This document shows positions 4,444-48,703 of a stretch of 64,000 bases of DNA, piece by piece. The DNA comes from an uncultured Gammaproteobacteria bacterium (GTDB lineage: Bacteria > Pseudomonadota > Gammaproteobacteria > Eutrophobiales > Eutrophobiaceae). A program made the position numbers and the translations under genes. The stretch is taken from the NCBI GenBank assembly GCA_938084745.1, contig CALKEZ010000006.1, forward strand, positions 129,007 to 193,006, written 5' to 3'. The notes below the pieces were generated by a model. It saw only the letters and a list, made by a program, of their open reading frames with translations, was not told the origin of the DNA and made no database searches. How positions within the stretch are numbered: the stretch's first letter is position 1; each line of letters begins with the position of its first letter.

Positions 4444-4687
4444 TAGAAATGCATCAACACTGACCCTTTTCGATTATTTTGATAAAAATAATAACGATCA
4501 GTGCATTATTTAACCAGTAAAGATAGTCTTTATCTGCAAATTGCTATATTATTTCATCATTAGTAAATTTTTGTAGCGGTACCCGGTAGTTCCTCGCAGT
4601 GTAAAGCAGCAGCTCCTCCCGTAGTATATCCACAACAACTAGCATGCTAATACATTGTTTTTTAATAACTTAAAGAGGTAACTCAAA

Positions 4688-4888
4688 ATGGCTACAGGTA
4701 CAGTAAAATGGTTTAACGATAGTAAAGGATTTGGATTTATTTCACCTGCTGATGGCAGCGCTGATGTGTTTGTTCATCACAGCGCAATTAAAGCAGACGG
4801 TTTCAAATCACTTGCAGAAGGTCAAAGTGTAACCTTTGATACCGAGCAAGGTGCTAAAGGACCTAGTGCAATCAACGTGGTTGCATAA
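4688..4888 (+). CDS. cold-shock protein, CspA family
   Basis: A 66-residue single-stranded nucleic-acid-binding protein. It shows both RNA-binding motifs: KGFGFISP (RNP1) and VFVHHSAI (RNP2). The [11 protein letters not shown] start and the ending [11 protein letters not shown] are typical of the family. Such proteins melt mRNA structure in the cold or act as housekeeping chaperones. The gene is monocistronic, with an AGAGGTAA ribosome binding site about 7 bases before ATG and a strong terminator just after it. The leader of roughly 100 or more bases upstream could be a long untranslated region like that of cspA, but the transcription start is not visible. Confidence 0.95.
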
Positions 4889-4916
4889 TAGACCAAACCA
4901 GACAGTTTTTTAGTCT

Positions 4917-4946
4917 AAAAAGCCTCGCTAACCGCGGGGCTTTTTT
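4917..4946 (+). terminator. Rho-independent terminator after the cold-shock gene
   Basis: A 12-base-pair stem (AAAAAGCCTCGC with GCGGGGCTTTTT, one G-T pair) closes a 5-base loop TAACC and runs into six T residues. It starts about 28 bases past the cold-shock stop codon. Confidence 0.9.
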
Positions 4947-5075
4947 ATTTGTTTGTAAATCAGCAAAATATTCTATTTATTAACGCTTTAAGAAGCTTAA
5001 TAAGATTTTTACTTCCGTCCCAATCTAGTCCATAGTGCTGGCAGAATTAAGCTGCTAAATTTAATTAATCCATCC

Positions 5076-23412: not shown

Positions 23413-23766
23413 AATGGCATCCTCATAATTAAATCAAAACCTTTATAAGAGTCAGCCTGAACATGTGTTGCTGGGTGAATGCGGGAAGAATTAAGAAAAG
23501 TCGCTTCGGACTCCTGTCCTCTCGCGACATACACTCCATCCATGGAGGTAACCCACATTCAGCTTCAGCTAAAGCAGGTTGTCTCTTTAGCGGTATTTTT
23601 ATTGCGCCCGCAAGCTGATTTCAAATCGGCGCATACAGAGAAAATAGAGAATTTTGCTCTCTATGTCAATTACTTAAAGTGACTTTCTACTGATTGATAT
23701 TACGGTTAAAATGGATGAGAAAATACAAATCATCAAATAATAATATACATATAGGGAGAGCATCTT
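23413..23766. other. metZ-icd divergent gap with structured metZ leader
   Basis: No gene in this 354-base gap. On the minus strand, the metZ leader contains a two-stem hairpin at 23500-23528: GTCGC pairs with GCGAC around an inner GGAC / GTCC stem closed by AGGA, followed by TTTT. A further small hairpin, CTCCA / TGGAG, lies at 23534-23547. I could not match these to a SAM riboswitch consensus by eye. On the plus side, icd has a GGGAGA ribosome binding site and an A+T-rich promoter area near 23690-23750. Confidence 0.5.
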
Positions 23767-37640: not shown

Positions 37641-39215
37641 CTACTCAGTCGTTATAATCTCTATCTTCTGGTTTCCAACAAGACTATAGAGGTCATCACG
37701 TCGATCATATAATGGGCGCACACTGCCTATCTCTCGCTGCAAATGTAAATTGCTGATATCAAGATCAGCAATCACCACCGTTTCAGTATTCGGATCCGCA
37801 ATACCCTCAGCACAACCTTCAGGAAAGGCAAAGTCACTCGGAGTTAATATCGCCGATTGCCCATAGTTAATTAAATAGGATTTAACGTTAGGTAAATTAC
37901 CCACATTACCGGACAGAACCACATAGATATAATTCTCAACCGCTCGTGCCTGAGCACAAAACCTGACCCGGTTATAGGCTTTACGTTCGTCAGTACTGAA
38001 TGGCACAAACAAAACTTCCACACCGGCTAATGTTAATAATCGCGCAAGCTCGGGAAATTCGATATCGTAACAAACCACTATCGCCATACGACAATGTGGT
38101 GTATCGAAAACACGAATCTTTTCGCCAGGCTCTATATCCCACCATTCCCTTTCAGCAGGCGTAATATGAATTTTGTCCTGAGTGTGTACCTTGCCGGAAG
38201 GCGTAAAAAAATGCGCTACATTATATAACTTGCCATCTCGTAGCACCGGCGTTGATCCTCCAATGATATAGATGCCATGCTCGACGGCTTTGGCTGTCAT
38301 CATCTCAATAAACTTGGGTGTCAAGGAAGCCAATTCCAGGATCGCTTCTTTATCATTAAGATTATGATCAAATATACTGAACAATTGTGCCGTAAATAAT
38401 TCAGGTAACACCAGAAAATGTGAATGATAAATACTGGCAGTATCGACAAAAAATTCAACTGACTCAGCAAACTCATCCCAGTTTTTCAAACGCTTCATTT
38501 CATACTGTGCTGCACAGACACGAATTCGACGTATCGGTTTTTTTATTCGCGTGCTGGATATTTTTCTGCGTTCTTCATTAAAGTCAGGGTTAAGCATTTC
38601 CAGCCAGGTTGCGTAATTCATGCTTTCTTTATCGACAACCAGATCAAGCAATACTTTTTTCACTTCGAAACCGGCACTGAGATGCGCATTTAATGCGGGA
38701 TCTTTTAATTCTCCATTGATAACTTTCTGCACATAAGTCTTGGCCGTCATCTTCCCTGCATGTTCCCGATATCCGGGTATCCGCCCATGCGCCACCATTC
38801 GACGCAGATTATAGCGTTTGAGAATTTTTTTACGGGCAACATAGAGTTTCGCTGCAACACCCTGTCCGCGATACTCAGGCACAACACCAATGTCTGCACC
38901 ATAAAGTGTATCGCCAGAAGGATTATGCGTGGTGAATGATCCAGAGCCGGTTATTTCCGAATAGGTATAATAATCCGAGCTGTCATCGAGCTGGACGATG
39001 ATCGTGCAACCATAACCAATAATCTTGCCATTGCTTTCAGCCAGGTATTGGCCTTCAGGAAAATGGCTGAATTGGTGCTCCAGCTTGCGAAGGTCAAAAA
39101 CTTCACCCTCATCGTAATCACTGTAAATTTCAGCATGGCACTTTACCAGTTCAGGAATATCTTCCTTCTTCCAGCGGCGAACCTTAACAGTAGATTTTTT
39201 CTTGTTCTTGATCAT
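37641..39215 (-). CDS. GNAT acetyltransferase fused to a carbon-nitrogen hydrolase
   Basis: A 524-residue two-domain protein. Residues about 10-200 are a GNAT acyltransferase (VPEYRGQGVAAKLYVARKKILKRY, acetyl-CoA loop). Residues about 230-510 are a nitrilase/amidase domain with the catalytic triad Glu (FLVLPELFTAQLF), Lys (TQDKIHITPAE) and Cys (MAIVVCYDIEFPELARLL). The fusion is a known architecture of unknown substrate; the two parts could acylate an amine and hydrolyse an amide in sequence. The gene is single, convergent with bamE, with no obvious partner. Start ATG is at 39215. Confidence 0.9.
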   Translation of the reverse strand: MIKNKKKSTVKVRRWKKEDIPELVKCHAEIYSDYDEGEVFDLRKLEHQFSHFPEGQYLAESNGKIIGYGCTIIVQLDDSSDYYTYSEITGSGSFTTHNPSGDTLYGADIGVVPEYRGQGVAAKLYVARKKILKRYNLRRMVAHGRIPGYREHAGKMTAKTYVQKVINGELKDPALNAHLSAGFEVKKVLLDLVVDKESMNYATWLEMLNPDFNEERRKISSTRIKKPIRRIRVCAAQYEMKRLKNWDEFAESVEFFVDTASIYHSHFLVLPELFTAQLFSIFDHNLNDKEAILELASLTPKFIEMMTAKAVEHGIYIIGGSTPVLRDGKLYNVAHFFTPSGKVHTQDKIHITPAEREWWDIEPGEKIRVFDTPHCRMAIVVCYDIEFPELARLLTLAGVEVLFVPFSTDERKAYNRVRFCAQARAVENYIYVVLSGNVGNLPNVKSYLINYGQSAILTPSDFAFPEGCAEGIADPNTETVVIADLDISNLHLQREIGSVRPLYDRRDDLYSLVGNQKIEIITTE

Positions 39216-39299: not shown

Positions 39300-39593
39300 T
39301 TATGATTGCTGTTTTTGTACTCGGCGGCGGCGTGCTTCTTTCGGGTCAACGAGTAAGGGGCGATAGATTTCCAATCGGTCGCCGTTATTCAAAACATAAT
39401 CCAGGGGCTTAATCTTGCTGAAGATACCGACTTTATTCACGGCCAAATCGATTTCGGGAAAACGTTGTAACAATCCGGAACGTTTAATGACCTGGCTGAT
39501 ATTACTGCCTTGAGGGATTTTCAGGATTAAACTGTTTTGGCTATCCGGTTTAATATAAATCAGTTCAACCGTAATCGCCTCATTTTTATCCAT
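39300..39593 (-). CDS. rnfH: RnfH family protein (UPF0125)
   Basis: The 97-residue ubiquitin-like-fold protein has AITVELIYIKPDSQNSLILKIPQGSNISQVIKRSG and NKVGIFSKIKPLDYVLNNGDRLEIYRPLLVDPKEARRRRV, the family pattern. Function is not established. It overlaps the end of ratA by 8 bases, the usual ratA-rnfH pair found near smpB and bamE. Confidence 0.92.
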   Translation of the reverse strand: MDKNEAITVELIYIKPDSQNSLILKIPQGSNISQVIKRSGLLQRFPEIDLAVNKVGIFSKIKPLDYVLNNGDRLEIYRPLLVDPKEARRRRVQKQQS

Positions 39594-40017
39594 AAACTTC
39601 CTGCGCTCTTTTCACAAAGGCATCGACTAAAGAATCAGTAATTTTTTTAAAAGCGGCGCCGAGAGCATGCTTGACCAGTCTATTTTTAAATTCGAATTGC
39701 ATTTCTAATGTCACCGTACACCCGCCATTAACATCATCATGGAACTGCCAATGACCATACAATTCCTTGAACGGTCCTTCAATCAACCGCATTATTATTG
39801 AAGTGTTCGCCTGCATCGTGTTGGCGGTTGTGAAAGTCTGTTTAATCTTGCCTACCGCTATCGAAACTGATGCGGTCAAAGAGCCGTTAGTAGAGCCATG
39901 CACCGCGGTCCCGGTACACCAGGGAAGAAACTCCGGATAAGAGGCAATATCATTGACCAACGCATACATTTGACTGGCACTGTATTCCACGTGTGCTTGC
40001 TTGTTTATTTTAGTCAC
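39586..40017 (-). CDS. ratA: RatA-type START-domain protein (ubiquinone-binding, COQ10-like)
   Basis: A 143-residue START/polyketide-cyclase fold protein. The features are VEYSASQMYALVNDIASYPEFLPWCTG, then LIEGPFKELYGHWQFHDD and FEFKNRLVKHALGAAFKKITDSLVDAFVKRA. Family members are described both as an inhibitor of 70S ribosome association (RatA of E. coli) and as ubiquinone-related COQ10 homologues, so the role is uncertain. It is followed by rnfH with an 8-base overlap. An alternative start is unlikely. Confidence 0.92.
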   Translation of the reverse strand: MTKINKQAHVEYSASQMYALVNDIASYPEFLPWCTGTAVHGSTNGSLTASVSIAVGKIKQTFTTANTMQANTSIIMRLIEGPFKELYGHWQFHDDVNGGCTVTLEMQFEFKNRLVKHALGAAFKKITDSLVDAFVKRAQEVYG

Positions 40018-40032
40018 AACAAAAAAACCGAA

Positions 40033-41445
40033 TTACTCAACCAGACCCAATAATTTAAAGAAACCAATTGCATGTAAAAATATGATAATTACGCCAAACG
40101 GGGCAATATAACGAACGGCAAAACGCCATGCTTTGTAACCCTTATTATCACCTATGCCAAGTTCATCTACGGTTGACGATCTTGACATCAACCAGGCAGC
40201 GAATATCGCCACTAATAACCCCCCTATAGGTAACAAAATATTCGATGTCAAAATATCAAAGATATCGAAAAATCCATTCTCCTTGATCACACCAGCAAAA
40301 CTGAAAGAGAAGGCCCAATGATTAAATGACAAGATCGTCACTAGACCAAGTAGCCAGACAATCAAACCCGCCAGCGCCGTCGCTTTAACACGTGTCATAT
40401 TCCTGTTCTCAACTAACCATGTTACTGCGGGTTCAAGCAGGGAGATAGACGAAGTCCATCCCGCAAACATCAACAGGATAAAAAACAGGGTGCCAAAGAA
40501 GGAACCAAATGGCATTTGGCCAAACGCAATCGGCAATGTAATGAAAATCAAACCGGGGCCGCCGGCCGGCTCCAGACCATAGGTAAACACAATCGGAAAA
40601 ATCGCCACACCCGCCAAAATAGCGACCGAGGTATCGGCGATTGCAATAGTGAAGCAATTGAATGTGATTGATGATTTTTGCGACAAGTACGATCCATAGA
40701 TCATAATTGCGCCCATACCAATACTCAGACTAAAAAAGGCCTGTCCCAATGCGGGCAACAGAATATCAGCGAAAAAATTCTTGTCCGCCAGCCGTTCAAA
40801 ATCGGGTACAAACAAATAAGTAATCCCTTCAACAAATTTCTCGGTACTCATGGCATAGCCAACCATGATCAACAGTAGAATTAAAAGCGCGGGCATTAAA
40901 AATTTAACGGCCTTTTCGAGGCCACTTTTAACACCGCGAGACACAACCACGACACTCATACAGACAAAAATCGTATGCCAGGCCAGTAATTTTTCCGGAT
41001 CGGAGATTAACTCGTTAAACATCTGTTTGGACAAACCGGCGTCGGCATCAACAAACAGTCCAGTGCCGGTTCGGAAGATATAGGCCAGTGTCCAGCCAGC
41101 AATCACACTGTAATATGACAAGATAATAAATCCGGCGATGACACCCATCCAGCCCAGGTAATGCCACTTATCGCTCAGACCTTCCTCAGCCGCCAGGGTA
41201 CTCATCGTATTAATCGGACTTTGCCGCCCCCGACGCCCCAACATGATCTCTGCCATCATGATGGGAATACCGACCAATACCACGCAAATGAGATAAACAA
41301 GAACAAAGGCACCACCGCCGTTTTCACCGGCTAAATAGGGAAATCGCCAGATATTTCCCAAGCCTACAGCGGAACCCGTGGCGGCGAGTATGAAAGCCCA
41401 GCGTGAAGACCACTGGCCATGGATAGATGAACGTTTAGATGACAT
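40033..41445 (-). CDS. sodium:neurotransmitter symporter (NSS/SNF) family transporter
   Basis: A 470-residue inner-membrane protein with about 11-12 membrane segments. The N-terminus holds the family signature WAFILAATGSAVGLGNIWRFPYLAGENGGGAF, lining the sodium and substrate sites. Further segments include YSVIAGWTLAYIF and QAFFSLSIGMGAIMIYGSYL. Bacterial members move amino acids or amines with sodium; the substrate here is unknown. The gene is alone, divergent from the first kinase gene. Confidence 0.94.
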   Translation of the reverse strand: MSSKRSSIHGQWSSRWAFILAATGSAVGLGNIWRFPYLAGENGGGAFVLVYLICVVLVGIPIMMAEIMLGRRGRQSPINTMSTLAAEEGLSDKWHYLGWMGVIAGFIILSYYSVIAGWTLAYIFRTGTGLFVDADAGLSKQMFNELISDPEKLLAWHTIFVCMSVVVVSRGVKSGLEKAVKFLMPALLILLLIMVGYAMSTEKFVEGITYLFVPDFERLADKNFFADILLPALGQAFFSLSIGMGAIMIYGSYLSQKSSITFNCFTIAIADTSVAILAGVAIFPIVFTYGLEPAGGPGLIFITLPIAFGQMPFGSFFGTLFFILLMFAGWTSSISLLEPAVTWLVENRNMTRVKATALAGLIVWLLGLVTILSFNHWAFSFSFAGVIKENGFFDIFDILTSNILLPIGGLLVAIFAAWLMSRSSTVDELGIGDNKGYKAWRFAVRYIAPFGVIIIFLHAIGFFKLLGLVE

Positions 41446-41575: not shown

Positions 41576-43990
41576 ATGGGCGCCTTGGCAAATAAAAACT
41601 CGCAAAACACATCATTACCAGCACGGATCGGTCGATTTGTCCCTATAAAAGTGCTGGGTAAAGGGGCACAGGGGGTTGTTTATCTGGCAGAAGACTCGCA
41701 ACTTGGTCGCAACGTTGCCATAAAAACACTGGATAAGCACCGTCAGGATGCTGAACAGCTCAATCAGGAAGCGAAAAATGTCAGCCAGTTAAATCATCCC
41801 AACATTATCCAACTCTATGAAATCGGTTTTCACAACGACACGCCTTTTCTCGTCTATCAATACCATGAAGGTGAACAACTGAAACAGCGATTACAACGTG
41901 AAGGAAAATTGAGTCAAATCGATGCGATAAAAATTACTAACCAATTGCTGGAGGGTATAGCCTACGCCCATAAAAATAACATTATCCATCGTGATCTGAA
42001 CCCTTCCAACCTGTTAATTGATAAGGAAGGTAATGCCAAGATTATGGATTTTGGTATTTCGATTATTGCAGGCACTGTTACAGCAAGCACAGAAGTTACC
42101 GGGACGGTAAATTATCTCGCTCCGGAACAATTGACCAATAGCGATTTAAGTCCGTCGATCGATATCTTTGCGACGGGCCTGATGTTTTTTGAAATGCTCA
42201 CCGGTCATCAGGTCTACGCCGCCAATAATAAGATGGCGGTGATGTACAAGATTACAAATGATGTCGTGGCGCCACCCTCGAAACGAAATCCGGAGATTGC
42301 TAAAGATCTGGATGCGGTTGTTATGAAAGCACTTGAAAAAGATCCAGCCAATCGCTATGCCAATGCGGCTGAGATGCAGGCCACACTGAAAAAGTATCTC
42401 AAGGTTGATGATGAGGATGAGGATGAGAAGTCCGCCGACGCTAACACATCAAGCGCAGTGGATTTCTTATTACGTCGCATGAAACGTAAACAGGACTTCC
42501 CAGCGATATCAGGCCACATCACAGACATCAATCAAAAGACATCTGGTCAGACTAAAAGCTCTGCCAATGAACTGTCTAATGTTATTTTAAAAGACTTCGC
42601 TTTAACCACGAAACTGGTACGCCTGGTTAATTCTTCGTTTTATGGGCAATTCGGTGGTGAAATAACCACGGTCTCACGAGCCGTCGTCATATTGGGGTTC
42701 GAACATGTGCGCGCGGCCGTCTTGAGTATTATTTTATTTGAACATCTACAAAATAATGAACAAGCAAATGAACTAAAGAATGCTGCTTACACCGCATTGA
42801 TGAGTGGCATTATCGCGCGTGAAAAAGCCAAGCAAATGAAAAACATCAATCCTGATGATGTAGAGACCGCATTCGTCACCTCGATGTTTCACCTGCTGGG
42901 TAAGTTATTATCGATCTATTATTTTCCCGAAGAATTTGAAGCCATGAAAACACTGGTAGCGAATAAGGGCGTTGATGAAGATAAAGCCATGCGATCGGTG
43001 CTCGGTGTGACTTATGAAGAATTGGGCCGTGGCATTGCAAAAGAATGGAAACTCCCCGGTGTCATCGGTGACAGTATGAAAAAATTGCCCGAGGGTAATA
43101 TCCCTGTTGCCAAAACATCAAAAGAATCCTTAATACAGCTTGCCTGTTTTTCAAATGAACTATGTGCCATCAACAGCAATAACGACAACACTGAAGCGGC
43201 ATACGAAGAACTCGCCGCCCGTTACAAGGAATCGCTAGGTATAAGCAAGGACAACATTTCATCGTTACTTGAATCGTCAGTAAAAGAAGCCGAGGAATTT
43301 ACCCGTATACTTAATATTGATACCAGTAAGGTCACCGTATTCAACAACATCAGGAAGAACATTGATAATCAAGATGACGATGGCAACTGGAATACTGAAG
43401 TTAATGAAAAGCATGCCTCGGAAAATAATGGCGTTACTATCGAAACCGTTAAAGCAGAGCCCAAAACACAAAAACAAAATCAGCATGATATTCTGGTCAA
43501 TGGCATTGCTGAAATAACCAACTCCCTCTTGGGCGATATTAATATTAACGATGTCCTGACCATGGTATTGGAAACAATATACCGTGGCATGGGTTTCAAC
43601 CGTGTTTTGTTCGCTATCTATGATGCAAAGAACAAACAGGTATCCGCACGCTTTGGTTTAGGTAAAGGCATCGATGAAGTTATTCCGAATTTTCGCTACA
43701 ACATTGATGGGTCAGATGATGTATTTGTCTCAACCATAAAAAATGGTAAAGAATTCATTGTTCTGGATGTAAATTCTGCTGAATACAAAGATCGGATTCC
43801 AGGCTGGGTCAGAAAGCTCACATTACCCACGACCGTTGTACTGTATCCACTGATAGTCAATAAACGCTGTGTTGGACTGATCTACGCAGACAATGATGAT
43901 TCAAGCATCAAAATATCCATGGAAGCGCTCGGGTTCTTCAAGACCTTACGCAATCAGGCATCACTTGCGATACAGCAGGTTAGAAAATAA
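41576..43990 (+). CDS. Ser/Thr protein kinase-HDOD-GAF protein, first copy
   Basis: An 804-residue cytoplasmic protein with three parts. Residues about 20-275 are a protein kinase with GKGAQGVVYLAED, catalytic Lys 50 (VAIK), HRDLNPSN near residue 139, MDFGIS and LAPEQL. Residues about 290-500 are HDOD (VNSSFYGQFGGEITTVSRAVVILGFEHVRAAVLS). Residues about 640-800 are GAF (LLGDININDVLTMVLETIYRGMGFNRVLFAIYD). HDOD and GAF suggest response to a small ligand or second messenger. The Lys normally in HRDLK is Asn. A paralogue follows after 3 bases, so both are one transcript. No transmembrane segment is seen. Confidence 0.9.
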   Translation: MGALANKNSQNTSLPARIGRFVPIKVLGKGAQGVVYLAEDSQLGRNVAIKTLDKHRQDAEQLNQEAKNVSQLNHPNIIQLYEIGFHNDTPFLVYQYHEGEQLKQRLQREGKLSQIDAIKITNQLLEGIAYAHKNNIIHRDLNPSNLLIDKEGNAKIMDFGISIIAGTVTASTEVTGTVNYLAPEQLTNSDLSPSIDIFATGLMFFEMLTGHQVYAANNKMAVMYKITNDVVAPPSKRNPEIAKDLDAVVMKALEKDPANRYANAAEMQATLKKYLKVDDEDEDEKSADANTSSAVDFLLRRMKRKQDFPAISGHITDINQKTSGQTKSSANELSNVILKDFALTTKLVRLVNSSFYGQFGGEITTVSRAVVILGFEHVRAAVLSIILFEHLQNNEQANELKNAAYTALMSGIIAREKAKQMKNINPDDVETAFVTSMFHLLGKLLSIYYFPEEFEAMKTLVANKGVDEDKAMRSVLGVTYEELGRGIAKEWKLPGVIGDSMKKLPEGNIPVAKTSKESLIQLACFSNELCAINSNNDNTEAAYEELAARYKESLGISKDNISSLLESSVKEAEEFTRILNIDTSKVTVFNNIRKNIDNQDDDGNWNTEVNEKHASENNGVTIETVKAEPKTQKQNQHDILVNGIAEITNSLLGDININDVLTMVLETIYRGMGFNRVLFAIYDAKNKQVSARFGLGKGIDEVIPNFRYNIDGSDDVFVSTIKNGKEFIVLDVNSAEYKDRIPGWVRKLTLPTTVVLYPLIVNKRCVGLIYADNDDSSIKISMEALGFFKTLRNQASLAIQQVRK

Positions 43991-43993
43991 ACC

Positions 43994-46381
43994 ATGCTGT
44001 CCGGTTTAATCAAAAAGAAAGCAGTTAGTGAAACAGCAGTTGAAAAGGAATACATAGGTCGCTTTGAGTTAATCAAGGAACTCGGGAAAGGTGCACAAGG
44101 TATCGTCTATCTGGCCAAGGATCTGAAGTTGAACCGGCATGTTGCGGTTAAAACACTATTACATAAAAATAAGGATGGCGACCAGATATTTAATGAGGCG
44201 CGTAACGTCAGCAGTTTAGAACATCCCAATATCATTCCTCTCTATGAAATTGGTGCACAAAACCAAAAGCCTTATCTGGTCTATCCCTATGTCAAAGGCA
44301 AAACCTTGCGCGAGTTTCTGGATAACAATCAAAAGTTAACCGTCATACAATCAACAAAAATTATTACGGCCATACTGGAAGGGCTTGCGCATGCGCATGA
44401 AAAGGACGTTGTGCATCGTGATTTAAATCCATCTAACATCCTGCTCGATGAGAATGATAATCCGCGTATTATGGATTTCGGTATTTCAACATTCTCAGGG
44501 CATAACACCTCAGACTCTGGCATTGTGGGTACGGTGGCCTATATGGCACCGGAACAAATTAATAATAAACAAGTCGGTCCATGGTCTGATGTATTCTCGA
44601 TTGGCATCATGTTATTTGAAATGCTTACCGGGCATTCCTTGTTTAAAGCAGATAACTCGATGGTGTCGATTTACAAAATCATGAATGAAAATATTCTGCC
44701 GCCATCGGCCAGAAACCATGCTGTTGATAAAGAACTGGACCAGATAGTTCTTAAAGCATTGGCAAAGACTAAAGATGAACGCTATTTAAGCGCCATTGAG
44801 ATGAAAGAAGCGCTTGAGCTCTATCTGGATGAAGAAACCGGTGATGCAATCACCGATGTCAACATGCCCGCAGATGAACAAGCGGTTAAAGAACAAGCGA
44901 CGCTGATGCTATTGCAGAGGAATCTGGATAAAAATAAAGATTTCCCGGTAATGGGCAACAGCATCACGCAAATAATGAAAATCACCAATAGCCAGGACTG
45001 CGCTGAAAAGCTGGCTGATATTATTCTGCGTGATCCCTCTTTAAGCACCAAGATTTTAAGCCTGGTCAACTCCAGTAACTATGGCCAGTTTGGTGGTGAA
45101 ATAAAAACCATTTCGCGTGCGGTAATTATCCTTGGTCTAAACCAGATTCAATCGATGTCAATCAGCATCATGGTATTTGAGAAACTCAATAATGGCCCTA
45201 TGGCTGAAATATTAAAAAGTAATACCTGCCAATCTTTTTTAAGTGCCATTTTTGCGAAAAAACTGGCCGGCAATACCTCAGTTGTCAATTCAGAGGAAGC
45301 CTTTCTGGCAAGCATGTTTCATAACCTTGGCAAACAAATCACAATCTATTTCTTACCCGATGAATATAACGACATTCTAAACCTGGTAATGGATAAGGGT
45401 CTCGAAGAAGACAAGGCAAGCAAAAGGATCCTGGGTATTACCTTCGCCAATATCGGGCAATATATCGCGATTAAATGGCAACTGCCTAAAAACATAATTT
45501 TAGGCATACAACCCAAACCACAAAGAATTACTCAAAAACCTGTCAAAGCCGAAGAATATCTTGCACAGATATCATCACTAACAAATGAAATCGTACAAGC
45601 CGCTGCTTGTGGTAATAATGAACAGGCGGAAAAGGAATTACAATTAATTATTAAACGTTACAAACCTGCTTTCTCATTAAGCTATGAAAAAATCACTCAA
45701 ATCCTTAATTATCTTTTTAAGGAATTAATAAGTTACTGCGAAGTACTGGGTATAGATCAGAATAAAAATACCTTTTGTAAAAACTTCATTATTTTTACGC
45801 AACAGGATTATGATTTTAGTGAGCAGGATGAAAGTAGTGAGTCGAGCGATGTTGATAATGAGAACAAGAATTTCCATGAAGCAGCCTTGACCTTTGGCAT
45901 TGCCAGCATTAGCGGGCTGTTATTCAAACAATATCAGTTTAACGAATTACTGAATATCGCCGTCGATACGTTGCTGCGTGGGCTTGAATGTGAACATGCG
46001 ATTATTTTTTTAAGAGATAAGGTCAACGGTGAAATAAGCGCGCAAGCTGGTGCGGGGAAGGACATATCCAGTGTTATGCAGCGATTTCATTTTCATACGA
46101 ATGAGACTGATGACATATTTAATCAGGCCATGAGTAAGCAGGCAGATATCTTCATACCCGATGTCGCCCATTCCTCATTGATCAATAAGATTCCCGACTG
46201 GTGTAAAAAAGTAACCTTTCCGAAGAACCTGCTTATTTATCCGATTTGTTCAAAAAACACCTGTGTTGGTTTACTTTATATCGATAATGCGCGCATTTTA
46301 TCTACAAAGTCGAAACAAGCTTTTGAATATATCGATACCCTACGTAATCAACTCGCCGTAGCGATACAACAACAAAAATGA
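43994..46381 (+). CDS. Ser/Thr protein kinase-HDOD-GAF protein, second copy
   Basis: A 795-residue paralogue of the preceding gene with the same order of domains. The kinase has GKGAQGIVYLAKD, Lys 53 (VAVK), VHRDLNPSN, MDFGIST and MAPEQIN. HDOD has VNSSNYGQFGGEIKTISRAVIILGLNQIQSM. GAF has LFKQYQFNELLNIAVDTLLRGLECEHAIIFL. The HRDLN exchange is conserved in both copies. An acidic spacer (EQDESSESSDVDNENK) links HDOD and GAF. It starts 3 bases after its neighbour, so both are co-transcribed. A short CCTGC / GCAGG hairpin follows the stop but without a T-run. Confidence 0.9.
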   Translation: MLSGLIKKKAVSETAVEKEYIGRFELIKELGKGAQGIVYLAKDLKLNRHVAVKTLLHKNKDGDQIFNEARNVSSLEHPNIIPLYEIGAQNQKPYLVYPYVKGKTLREFLDNNQKLTVIQSTKIITAILEGLAHAHEKDVVHRDLNPSNILLDENDNPRIMDFGISTFSGHNTSDSGIVGTVAYMAPEQINNKQVGPWSDVFSIGIMLFEMLTGHSLFKADNSMVSIYKIMNENILPPSARNHAVDKELDQIVLKALAKTKDERYLSAIEMKEALELYLDEETGDAITDVNMPADEQAVKEQATLMLLQRNLDKNKDFPVMGNSITQIMKITNSQDCAEKLADIILRDPSLSTKILSLVNSSNYGQFGGEIKTISRAVIILGLNQIQSMSISIMVFEKLNNGPMAEILKSNTCQSFLSAIFAKKLAGNTSVVNSEEAFLASMFHNLGKQITIYFLPDEYNDILNLVMDKGLEEDKASKRILGITFANIGQYIAIKWQLPKNIILGIQPKPQRITQKPVKAEEYLAQISSLTNEIVQAAACGNNEQAEKELQLIIKRYKPAFSLSYEKITQILNYLFKELISYCEVLGIDQNKNTFCKNFIIFTQQDYDFSEQDESSESSDVDNENKNFHEAALTFGIASISGLLFKQYQFNELLNIAVDTLLRGLECEHAIIFLRDKVNGEISAQAGAGKDISSVMQRFHFHTNETDDIFNQAMSKQADIFIPDVAHSSLINKIPDWCKKVTFPKNLLIYPICSKNTCVGLLYIDNARILSTKSKQAFEYIDTLRNQLAVAIQQQK

Positions 46382-46459: not shown

Positions 46460-46930
46460 ATGAGTAAAGAGAAACAATCTGGCGGCGGCAAAACTATCGC
46501 GCTGAATAAAAAAGCCCGCCATGATTATTCCATTGATGAGCGATTTGAAGCAGGCATTGCCCTGGAAGGCTGGGAAGTCAAGAGTCTGCGCGCGGGTAAA
46601 GTTCAGATTGTCGAGAGCTACATCCTGCTGAAAGACGGTGAAGCCTACCTGTTTGGTGCGTTAATCACTCCCTTACCCACGGCCTCAACCCATATTTCTC
46701 CGGATCCACAACGTAGCCGCAAACTATTGTTACATCGACAGGAACTAAACCGAGTAATCGGTGCTGTCGAACGCAAGGGATTCACTCTGGTCCCGACGGC
46801 GCTTTATTGGAAGAACGGTAAAGTCAAACTGGAATTCGGGATTGCGCGTGGTAAAAAAGCGCATGATAAACGCGAGACTGAAAAAGAACGTGACTGGCAA
46901 AGACAAAAATCAAGGTTATTAAGGCACTAA
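46460..46930 (+). CDS. smpB: SsrA-binding protein SmpB
   Basis: SmpB binds tmRNA and brings it to stalled ribosomes. The 156-residue protein has [69 protein letters not shown], and [32 protein letters not shown], with the usual basic tail. A TAAGTAATG context holds the start. The tmRNA gene itself lies about 1.4 kb downstream on the same strand. Confidence 0.97.
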
Positions 46931-46986: not shown

Positions 46987-48001
46987 TTAGAAAAGGTCAA
47001 CTTCACCGGAATCGATATTTTGTAAATTTGCGATACCTTGTTCGACCAGCTCTTCAAAAAATGCGAGCTGATTTCTACCGTTTTCTTTACAGTAATAGAG
47101 AGCCTGATCAGCATAATCCAGCAGCGTAGCCGAGAATGTGCCTTGCTCTATTCGTACAGCCCCCATACTCACGGTCACCCTTCCAACTCGTGGAAATACA
47201 TGGGAAGACACCCGATCCAGTAAACGTTGCAGGGCCTGTTTTGCGCCCGCTAGATCATCGCATTTTATAATTAACACAAACTCTTCGCCGCCAAACCGAA
47301 AAAATCAAATCGTCATCCCTGAAGCAAGTCTTGATAATGTGGGCGAGTAGTATTAGTACATCATCACCATAAACATGCCCATATTTGTCATTAATACTTT
47401 TAAAATGATCGATATCCAGCATCACCAGCCAAAATTTAGATGCGGTGTTGTGCCTTCTATCTTCCTCATAAGCTTCATTACTTGCAGGGAGAAGTTGATA
47501 GACTTTATCTATCGTTCGATCAAACGATTTACGATTCAATAATCCGGTTAGTGAATCGGTAATATTTTCTGCCAGTAAATCACAGTAATTTCGAAACACC
47601 ATTAACAATCCCATCACTAGATACTTATTGTCAACGGAGATAGTCGAGCATTCCAGAATAACCAGGTAGGAGATAGAATGTTGTGTCTTATTGATACTAT
47701 AAAGCGTTAGAAATCCAGTTTCGATTTCCAATGTATATTCAGTGGTATTAGTCTGATTGAGATGTAATATAATGTCTTTGATTTCATCCGATAATTCTTT
47801 GTCAGAATCATTAAGATCCGATTTTTCATCACCTAACACGATTTCCGAACGTAAATTCATTTCATTATCCGTTCGAATCAGGCGCAAATCGATCGGCTTC
47901 AAATATTGTTCCAAGGTGCGTAGTAAACTAATCTCAAGGAATTCTATATCCCTTATCGCAGTCAGATCGATAAGCTGGTCAAAAAGACGTTTAGCATCCA
48001 T
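46987..48001 (-). pseudogene. GGDEF diguanylate cyclase gene with a frameshift in the active-site motif
   Basis: From ATG at 48001 the first segment encodes an N-terminal sensory part of unrecognised sequence, then NITDSLTGLLNRKSFDRTID and FWLVMLDIDHFKSINDKYGHVYGDDVLILLA, the conserved start of a GGDEF domain. The next motif FRFGGEEFVLIIK is split. One extra A in the run 47299-47304 puts the second half (to 46987) in another frame, with RVGRVTVSMGAV and LDYADQALYYCKENGRNQ. Removing one base restores a single cyclic-di-GMP synthase of about 337 residues. The shift lies in a homopolymer, so sequencing error is possible. It is convergent with smpB. Confidence 0.8.
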
Positions 48002-48340: not shown

Positions 48341-48703
48341 GGGGGCGTACTGGCTTCGACGTGGATATGAAACCTGAGGGGCATGCCGAGGTGCAGATTA
48401 CCTCGTAAATACTTCTGCAAAACTTATAGTTGCCAACGAAGACAACTACGCACTAGCAGCTTAATAACCTGTCATAGTGCCGTCTGCCCATTCGTGTGCT
48501 TGTGCATGGTGGATCCAGGCGTCGACTCTCACAAGACCGCGATGAAACTCGTCCGAGGTGGATTCGTTAAAACTCTATCGGAATCGCTCTTTGTCTTCCC
48601 TGCCGTTCGGGTAGCACTGGGTTAAATTAAAGAGTCGGCTAAGCATGTAGAACCAATGGCAGAGGATTTGCGGACGCGGGTTCGATTCCCGCCGCCTCCA
48701 CCA
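48341..48703 (+). ncRNA. ssrA: tmRNA (transfer-messenger RNA)
   Basis: The start GGGGGCGTACTGGCTTCGAC and the end GGTTCGATTCCCGCCGCCTCCACCA are the two halves of the tRNA-like domain; GGGGGCG pairs with CGCCTCC. The tag frame at 48432-48464 reads ANEDNYALAA with a TAA-TAA double stop, so the full tag is AANEDNYALAA, beginning with the alanine carried by tmRNA. The length of about 363 bases fits. It is processed at the 5' end by RNase P and works with SmpB to rescue stalled ribosomes and tag the peptide for proteolysis. Confidence 0.97.

Follow-up and report, generated by a model that had tools for sequence, protein, structure and literature searches.

A tandem pair of kinase-HDOD-GAF proteins encoded upstream of smpB, an apparently undescribed combination of known domains in Gammaproteobacteria

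Roles in motility or attachment are reported for stand-alone HDOD proteins (PMC6543031, PMC11813219), and in Pseudomonas syringae an HDOD protein affects motility (PMC11813219). SadB of Pseudomonas, also an HDOD protein, binds c-di-GMP and takes part in the choice between motile and sessile life; according to the authors, how HDOD domains work mechanistically is not established (PMC6543031). HDOD domains are also found fused to EAL domains, e.g., in ZpdA of Vibrio cholerae (PMC12607878). Here we describe proteins, which we name KHG, in which a Ser/Thr kinase is followed by an HDOD and a GAF domain. The window (the whole stretch of DNA that was analyzed, 64,000 nucleotides of an uncultured gammaproteobacterium) encodes two of them in tandem, the first copy being KHG1 and the second KHG2.

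KHG shares an HDOD domain without the HD-GYP catalytic motif with four stand-alone HDOD proteins, namely GsmR and HdpA of Xanthomonas, PSPTO_4229 of P. syringae (273 aa, HDOD alone), and Cj0248 (1vqr), none of which PMC6543031 and PMC11813219 describe with a kinase attached. The HDOD domain of SadB is partnered by a YbaK-like domain, while that of KHG is partnered by a kinase and a GAF domain. ZpdA resembles KHG in having HDOD fused to a signaling enzyme; this enzyme is, however, a c-di-GMP phosphodiesterase, the kinase is absent, and a GAF domain is not described. A search of the open-licence literature, which lacks most subscription papers, turned up no study of kinase-HDOD proteins, so the architecture seems uncharacterized. 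The KHG pair is a real, conserved, and apparently undescribed combination of known domains, which map as follows.

41576..43990, + strand: KHG1, Ser/Thr kinase-HDOD-GAF protein, 804 aa (open reading frame, Pfam domains, same-locus orthologues)
41645..42361, + strand: KHG1 kinase domain, residues 24-262 (Pkinase, 4.3e-57)
41987-42010, + strand: KHG1 catalytic loop HRDLNPSN
42500..43069, + strand: KHG1 HDOD domain, residues 309-498 (PF08668, 1.9e-35)
43544..43972, + strand: KHG1 GAF domain, residues 657-799 (PF01590, 0.002, below the curated cut-off)
43994..46381, + strand: KHG2, kinase-HDOD-GAF paralogue, 795 aa (open reading frame, Pfam, alignment, own clade)
44063..44788, + strand: KHG2 kinase domain, residues 24-265 (Pkinase, 6.4e-56; motifs intact)
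44414-44437, + strand: KHG2 catalytic loop HRDLNPSN
44945..45502, + strand: KHG2 HDOD domain, residues 318-503 (PF08668, 1.5e-39)
45941..46366, + strand: KHG2 GAF domain, residues 650-791 (PF01590, 5.3e-5, above the cut-off)

The first-pass annotation of this DNA had proposed two paralogous proteins of about 800 residues with the domain order kinase-HDOD-GAF. Consistently with this proposal, KHG1 and KHG2 align end to end with 38% identity over 796 columns, and Pfam finds all three domains in that order in both. Both genes are co-directional, and only 3 bases (43991-43993) separate the KHG1 stop codon from the KHG2 ATG, which makes the single message suggested by the annotation probable. Promoter-like sites were no commoner than in shuffles, and terminator-like sites were within chance. 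KHG1 is 54 to 81% identical to its orthologues at the same locus. Among three genomes whose synonymous sites are unsaturated (G003, G008, and G010), omega was 0.03 to 0.05 for the kinase, HDOD, and GAF domains of KHG1 and 0.03 to 0.12 for those of KHG2, with the linkers of both under looser selection than the domains. The open reading frames are no chance products: relatives conserve them, and purifying selection is strong on each of the three domains in KHG1 and KHG2 alike.

The KHG kinase is about one-third identical to the PknB/Stk1-type Hanks Ser/Thr kinases (1mru, 4eqm) and shares their motifs and fold, but it is joined to HDOD and GAF domains, without the PASTA domains or the membrane anchor. 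Against the PASTA kinase model NF033483, KHG scored 278 bits (curated cut-off, 450) and gave no PASTA match; no transmembrane-like stretch was found in KHG1 or KHG2. The Hanks-type set (Gly-rich loop, VAIK/VAVK Lys, alphaC Glu, HRD Asp, catalytic Asn, DFG, and APE) is complete in both proteins, with GKGAQG, VAIK, HRD, DFG, and APE all intact in KHG1. Another difference from PknB/Stk1 is the Asn that replaces Lys after HRD (HRDLNPSN). This position, two residues past the HRD Asp and equivalent to PKA Lys168, is Asn in both KHG1 and KHG2, and Asn, Ser, or Thr in 35 of the 46 family members that carry a kinase. The Lys168-equivalent position varies in other active kinases too, so the Asn is not taken as disqualifying. 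A structure model built from 6 sequences was poor (pLDDT 60, the kinase part being worst), and all Foldseek matches listed for it were kinases.

Both HDOD domains are strong matches to PF08668 (122.6 bits for KHG1 and 135.9 bits for KHG2; Pfam cut-off, 22.9). Solved HDOD structures matched were 3hc1, 3m1t, and 9qzk for KHG1 and 3m1t, 3hc1, and MmoQ (3p3q) for KHG2; by sequence, 3hc1, 3m1t, 9qzk, and 3mem are the closest. The HD metal pair is missing from both, MFHLLGK or MFHNLGK being found instead of the HD motif; phosphodiesterase activity is therefore not expected. The GAF domain of KHG2 exceeds the PF01590 cut-off of 22.4 (24.2 bits), while that of KHG1 falls just under it (19.1 bits); the latter aligns over its full length with the KHG2 GAF domain and gives weak PDB matches to solved GAF-type chains, 3oov among them.

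The neighborhood of the pair contains the following features.

39586..40017, - strand: ratA (PF03364), which marks, with rnfH, a conserved left border for KHG
40033..41445, - strand: gene for an SNF/SLC6-type Na+ symporter (PF00209), divergent from KHG1
46460..46930, + strand: smpB (PF01668, 2e-57), the right border
46987-48001, - strand: GGDEF gene, reading as a single GGDEF protein but for one frame break immediately ahead of the GGEEF motif
48341-48703: tmRNA (ssrA)

The smpB, tmRNA, and broken GGDEF genes are thus where the first-pass annotation had placed them, with both KHG genes directly upstream of smpB. The order recN, fur, bamE, rnfH-ratA, symporter, KHG, smpB, ssrA recurs in relatives. 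KHG lies immediately 5' of smpB in five families, the window's own and those of G361, G151, G242, and G362; each of these four genomes has a single KHG gene, which adjoins a divergent ratA in three of the four, and the ratA/KHG/smpB order is seen at loci L092, L093, and L094. Only the window's family, in which it is conserved, has the symporter gene between ratA and KHG; the KHG-smpB loci of the other families lack it. Four genomes of the window's genus (G006, G007, G009, and G011) have symporter and smpB genes adjoining with no KHG between them, and G002 likewise has no KHG there. Only the window has the GGDEF gene between smpB and ssrA, none being at that place in the relatives examined; its frame break may be an assembly error.

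Several other features were seen in the window and in relatives. G002, a member of the genus, contains two smpB genes on separate contigs (L116, L117), each with its own tmRNA nearby. Between bamE and rnfH, the window encodes on the - strand (37641-39215) a 524-aa protein with acetyltransferase-like and nitrilase-like parts, as judged by eye, which among the relatives examined occupies the same place only in G007 (95% identical). The recN-fur interval of several members of the genus holds two adjacent unidentified genes (~350 and ~1030 aa; L041 4457-8577, L042 3392-7553, L044 3039-7183, and L045 4212-8320) that are absent from the window. Rfam matches in the window include a SAM_alpha riboswitch (23566-23642, - strand; 39.4 bits, cut-off 36), of a family named for Alphaproteobacteria and matched here in a gammaproteobacterial genome, and a full-length cspA thermoregulator (4532-4948, + strand; 96.5 bits, cut-off 78).

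A search for the same architecture in other genomes, which the first-pass annotation had advised, yielded kinase-HDOD or KHG matches (E <= 1e-60) in 28 of 369 sampled Gammaproteobacteria genomes, with the ratA-smpB place conserved in several families. No KHG was found beyond Gammaproteobacteria, all six matches in a phylum sample of 397 genomes falling in that class. A scan of genome contigs brought up just two close relatives and one kinase. Seven of the 12 genomes sampled from the window's genus possess the pair or a remnant of it (G000, G001, G003, G004, G005, G008, and G010). In the rest of the family, KHG is a single gene in G019 and a tandem of three in G015, and G016 combines KHG1 with a kinase-less KHG2. 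Most KHG genomes outside the window's family have one copy, and many families carry KHG at places other than smpB. A mobile origin was also considered and rejected, with no KHG relative covering more than the kinase in plasmid records and no KHG match in viral contigs.

In the HDOD tree, KHG1 and KHG2 form separate clades (support, 100/100 and 100/99), and the pair stems, on this phylogeny, from an ancient duplication inside the family of the window. When HDOD and GAF columns are combined, KHG1 joins the single KHG genes that lie at smpB in G361, G151, and G242 (support, 0.95); KHG1 therefore looks vertically inherited and KHG2 derived. With 0.97 changes per site, the KHG2 stem is long above the G015 copy, and KHG2 is an old duplicate that diverged faster. 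Its kinase was lost on two branches, with KHG1 intact in each: G016 KHG2 is an HDOD-GAF protein of 537 aa, while G004 and G005 KHG2 are HDOD only, the G005 copy also being frame-broken. The extra copy of G015 is a pseudokinase with HRS replacing HRD. Elsewhere, further tandem pairs arose independently. G185 has two tandem KHG proteins that are sisters in the tree, G618 has a pseudokinase-HDOD protein followed 13 bases on by a full KHG, G591 has two tandem HDOD-GAF proteins with the kinase absent, and G261 has a kinase-kinase-HDOD-GAF fusion of 1137 aa (L106 2681-6094). As far as domain comparison can tell, HDOD is the unit that stays, and the kinase can go from one or even both partners.

These patterns lend indirect support to the paired action that the first-pass annotation had envisaged, the pair being ancient and independent tandem pairs recurring with the kinase of one partner dead or missing. 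Our preferred reading, held at about even confidence, is that KHG1 and KHG2 would assemble in the cytosol into a two-protein Ser/Thr kinase with a paired HDOD-GAF core. We infer the complex from comparative anatomy. The HDOD and GAF domains would dimerize and sense a cytosolic signal, which would gate phosphorylation by KHG1, the presumed ancestral kinase of the assembly, plus KHG2 where its kinase remains. KHG2 could be a regulatory partner or a substrate, its own kinase being dispensable and its HDOD core not. Pairing is not obligatory, since the majority of KHG genomes from other families carry a single copy.

It is also possible, if doubtful, that KHG1 and KHG2 are two independent sensor kinases with separate signals and substrates, their adjacency being a relic of duplication. 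Tandem duplication is common, both proteins of the window retain their kinase motifs, and most relatives outside the family manage with a single copy. However, no pair-bearing genome of the family has the copies apart, and KHG2 is not just a second kinase, because it retains its HDOD domain even where its kinase has been lost. We prefer a complex over two unrelated kinases mainly because HDOD stays while the partner kinase can be lost.

Stand-alone HDOD genes are present in 10 of 10 family genomes with KHG versus 1 of 16 without (Fisher, 2e-6, ignoring phylogeny and genome size), and the species of the genus without KHG have no HDOD proteins of any kind. Within the genus, genomes with KHG have 15 to 41 GGDEF genes and those without have 0 to 4, counts uncorrected for phylogeny and genome size. 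FlhA was found in 26 of 28 KHG-positive versus 176 of 341 KHG-negative genomes of the class (1e-5, ignoring phylogeny and genome size). One exception is G261, which has other flagellar genes; the other is the window's own genome (87% complete), in which FlhA, flagellar rod, and CheW genes were not detected and the pair is kept. The pair is present without detected flagellar genes in G000, G003, G005, and G008, three of the four being less than 90% complete. In a tree of locus genes with several weak nodes, there seem to be about nine KHG-less lineages in the family, eight of them without FlhA. KHG is thus best put as belonging to genomes that keep HDOD signaling and are usually motile or rich in c-di-GMP. 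KHG of G246 has genes for a PP2C phosphatase and an FHA-cyclase next to it, and a kinase-HDOD gene of G001 has an FHA-cyclase gene nearby, as expected of Ser/Thr kinase signaling.

A purely flagellar role is favored by the class-level FlhA co-occurrence, yet it is unlikely because the window's own genome, with no flagellar genes detected, retains the pair. An association with type IV pili was also considered; T2SSE-family ATPases occur in all genomes tested and are uninformative.

If HDOD were to bind c-di-GMP and thereby switch the kinase, the two proteins would be a c-di-GMP-gated kinase pair, which is one version of the assembly with its ligand named; we regard it as unlikely. SadB is a c-di-GMP-binding HDOD protein, KHG presence in the genus goes with many GGDEF genes, and KHG is missing together with other HDOD genes. 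Nevertheless, the passages of PMC6543031 consulted do not place the binding by SadB in its HDOD domain, and the family's other genera keep 10 to 22 GGDEF genes without any KHG, so c-di-GMP signaling does not require KHG. The c-di-GMP link drawn by the first-pass annotation is left with circumstantial co-occurrence with GGDEF and HDOD genes, and loses the nearby broken GGDEF gene, which is specific to the window, as evidence of mechanism.

That KHG directly precedes smpB in five families could suggest a kinase acting on trans-translation through SmpB, but this is very improbable: smpB and tmRNA are intact in KHG-less genomes, KHG lies elsewhere in many families, and the ratA-smpB neighborhood is conserved even without KHG and may simply host the gene. 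An anti-phage defense kinase is the least credible reading, for although the PADLOC kinase models PD-T4-6 and Mad6 match the KHG kinase domains, the PD-T4-6 matches end by about residue 322, covering the generic kinase domain and neither HDOD nor GAF, the Mad6 matches run to residues 360 and 410, partly into HDOD and never into GAF (NCBIfam Mad6, 176/172 bits versus a cut-off of 460), no defense genes were recognized beside KHG, the locus is a conserved housekeeping one with vertical clades, and neither plasmids nor viral contigs yielded a full-length relative.

Under the preferred assembly of KHG1 and KHG2, the output would feed the sessile/motile network of HDOD proteins and c-di-GMP, and not trans-translation, despite the adjacency to smpB. 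More tentatively, and with rather low confidence, an HDOD-GAF-gated complex that joins an active kinase to its regulatory or pseudokinase paralogue might carry second-messenger information from the c-di-GMP network into Hanks-type phosphorylation. If this is true, HDOD domains would gain a defined biochemical output, and the pair would be a bacterial counterpart of active kinase/pseudokinase pairs. With HDOD tied to a kinase of readable output, and with that kinase repeatedly lost from one partner while HDOD stayed, KHG would offer a direct way into what HDOD does: sense, dimerize, or recruit.
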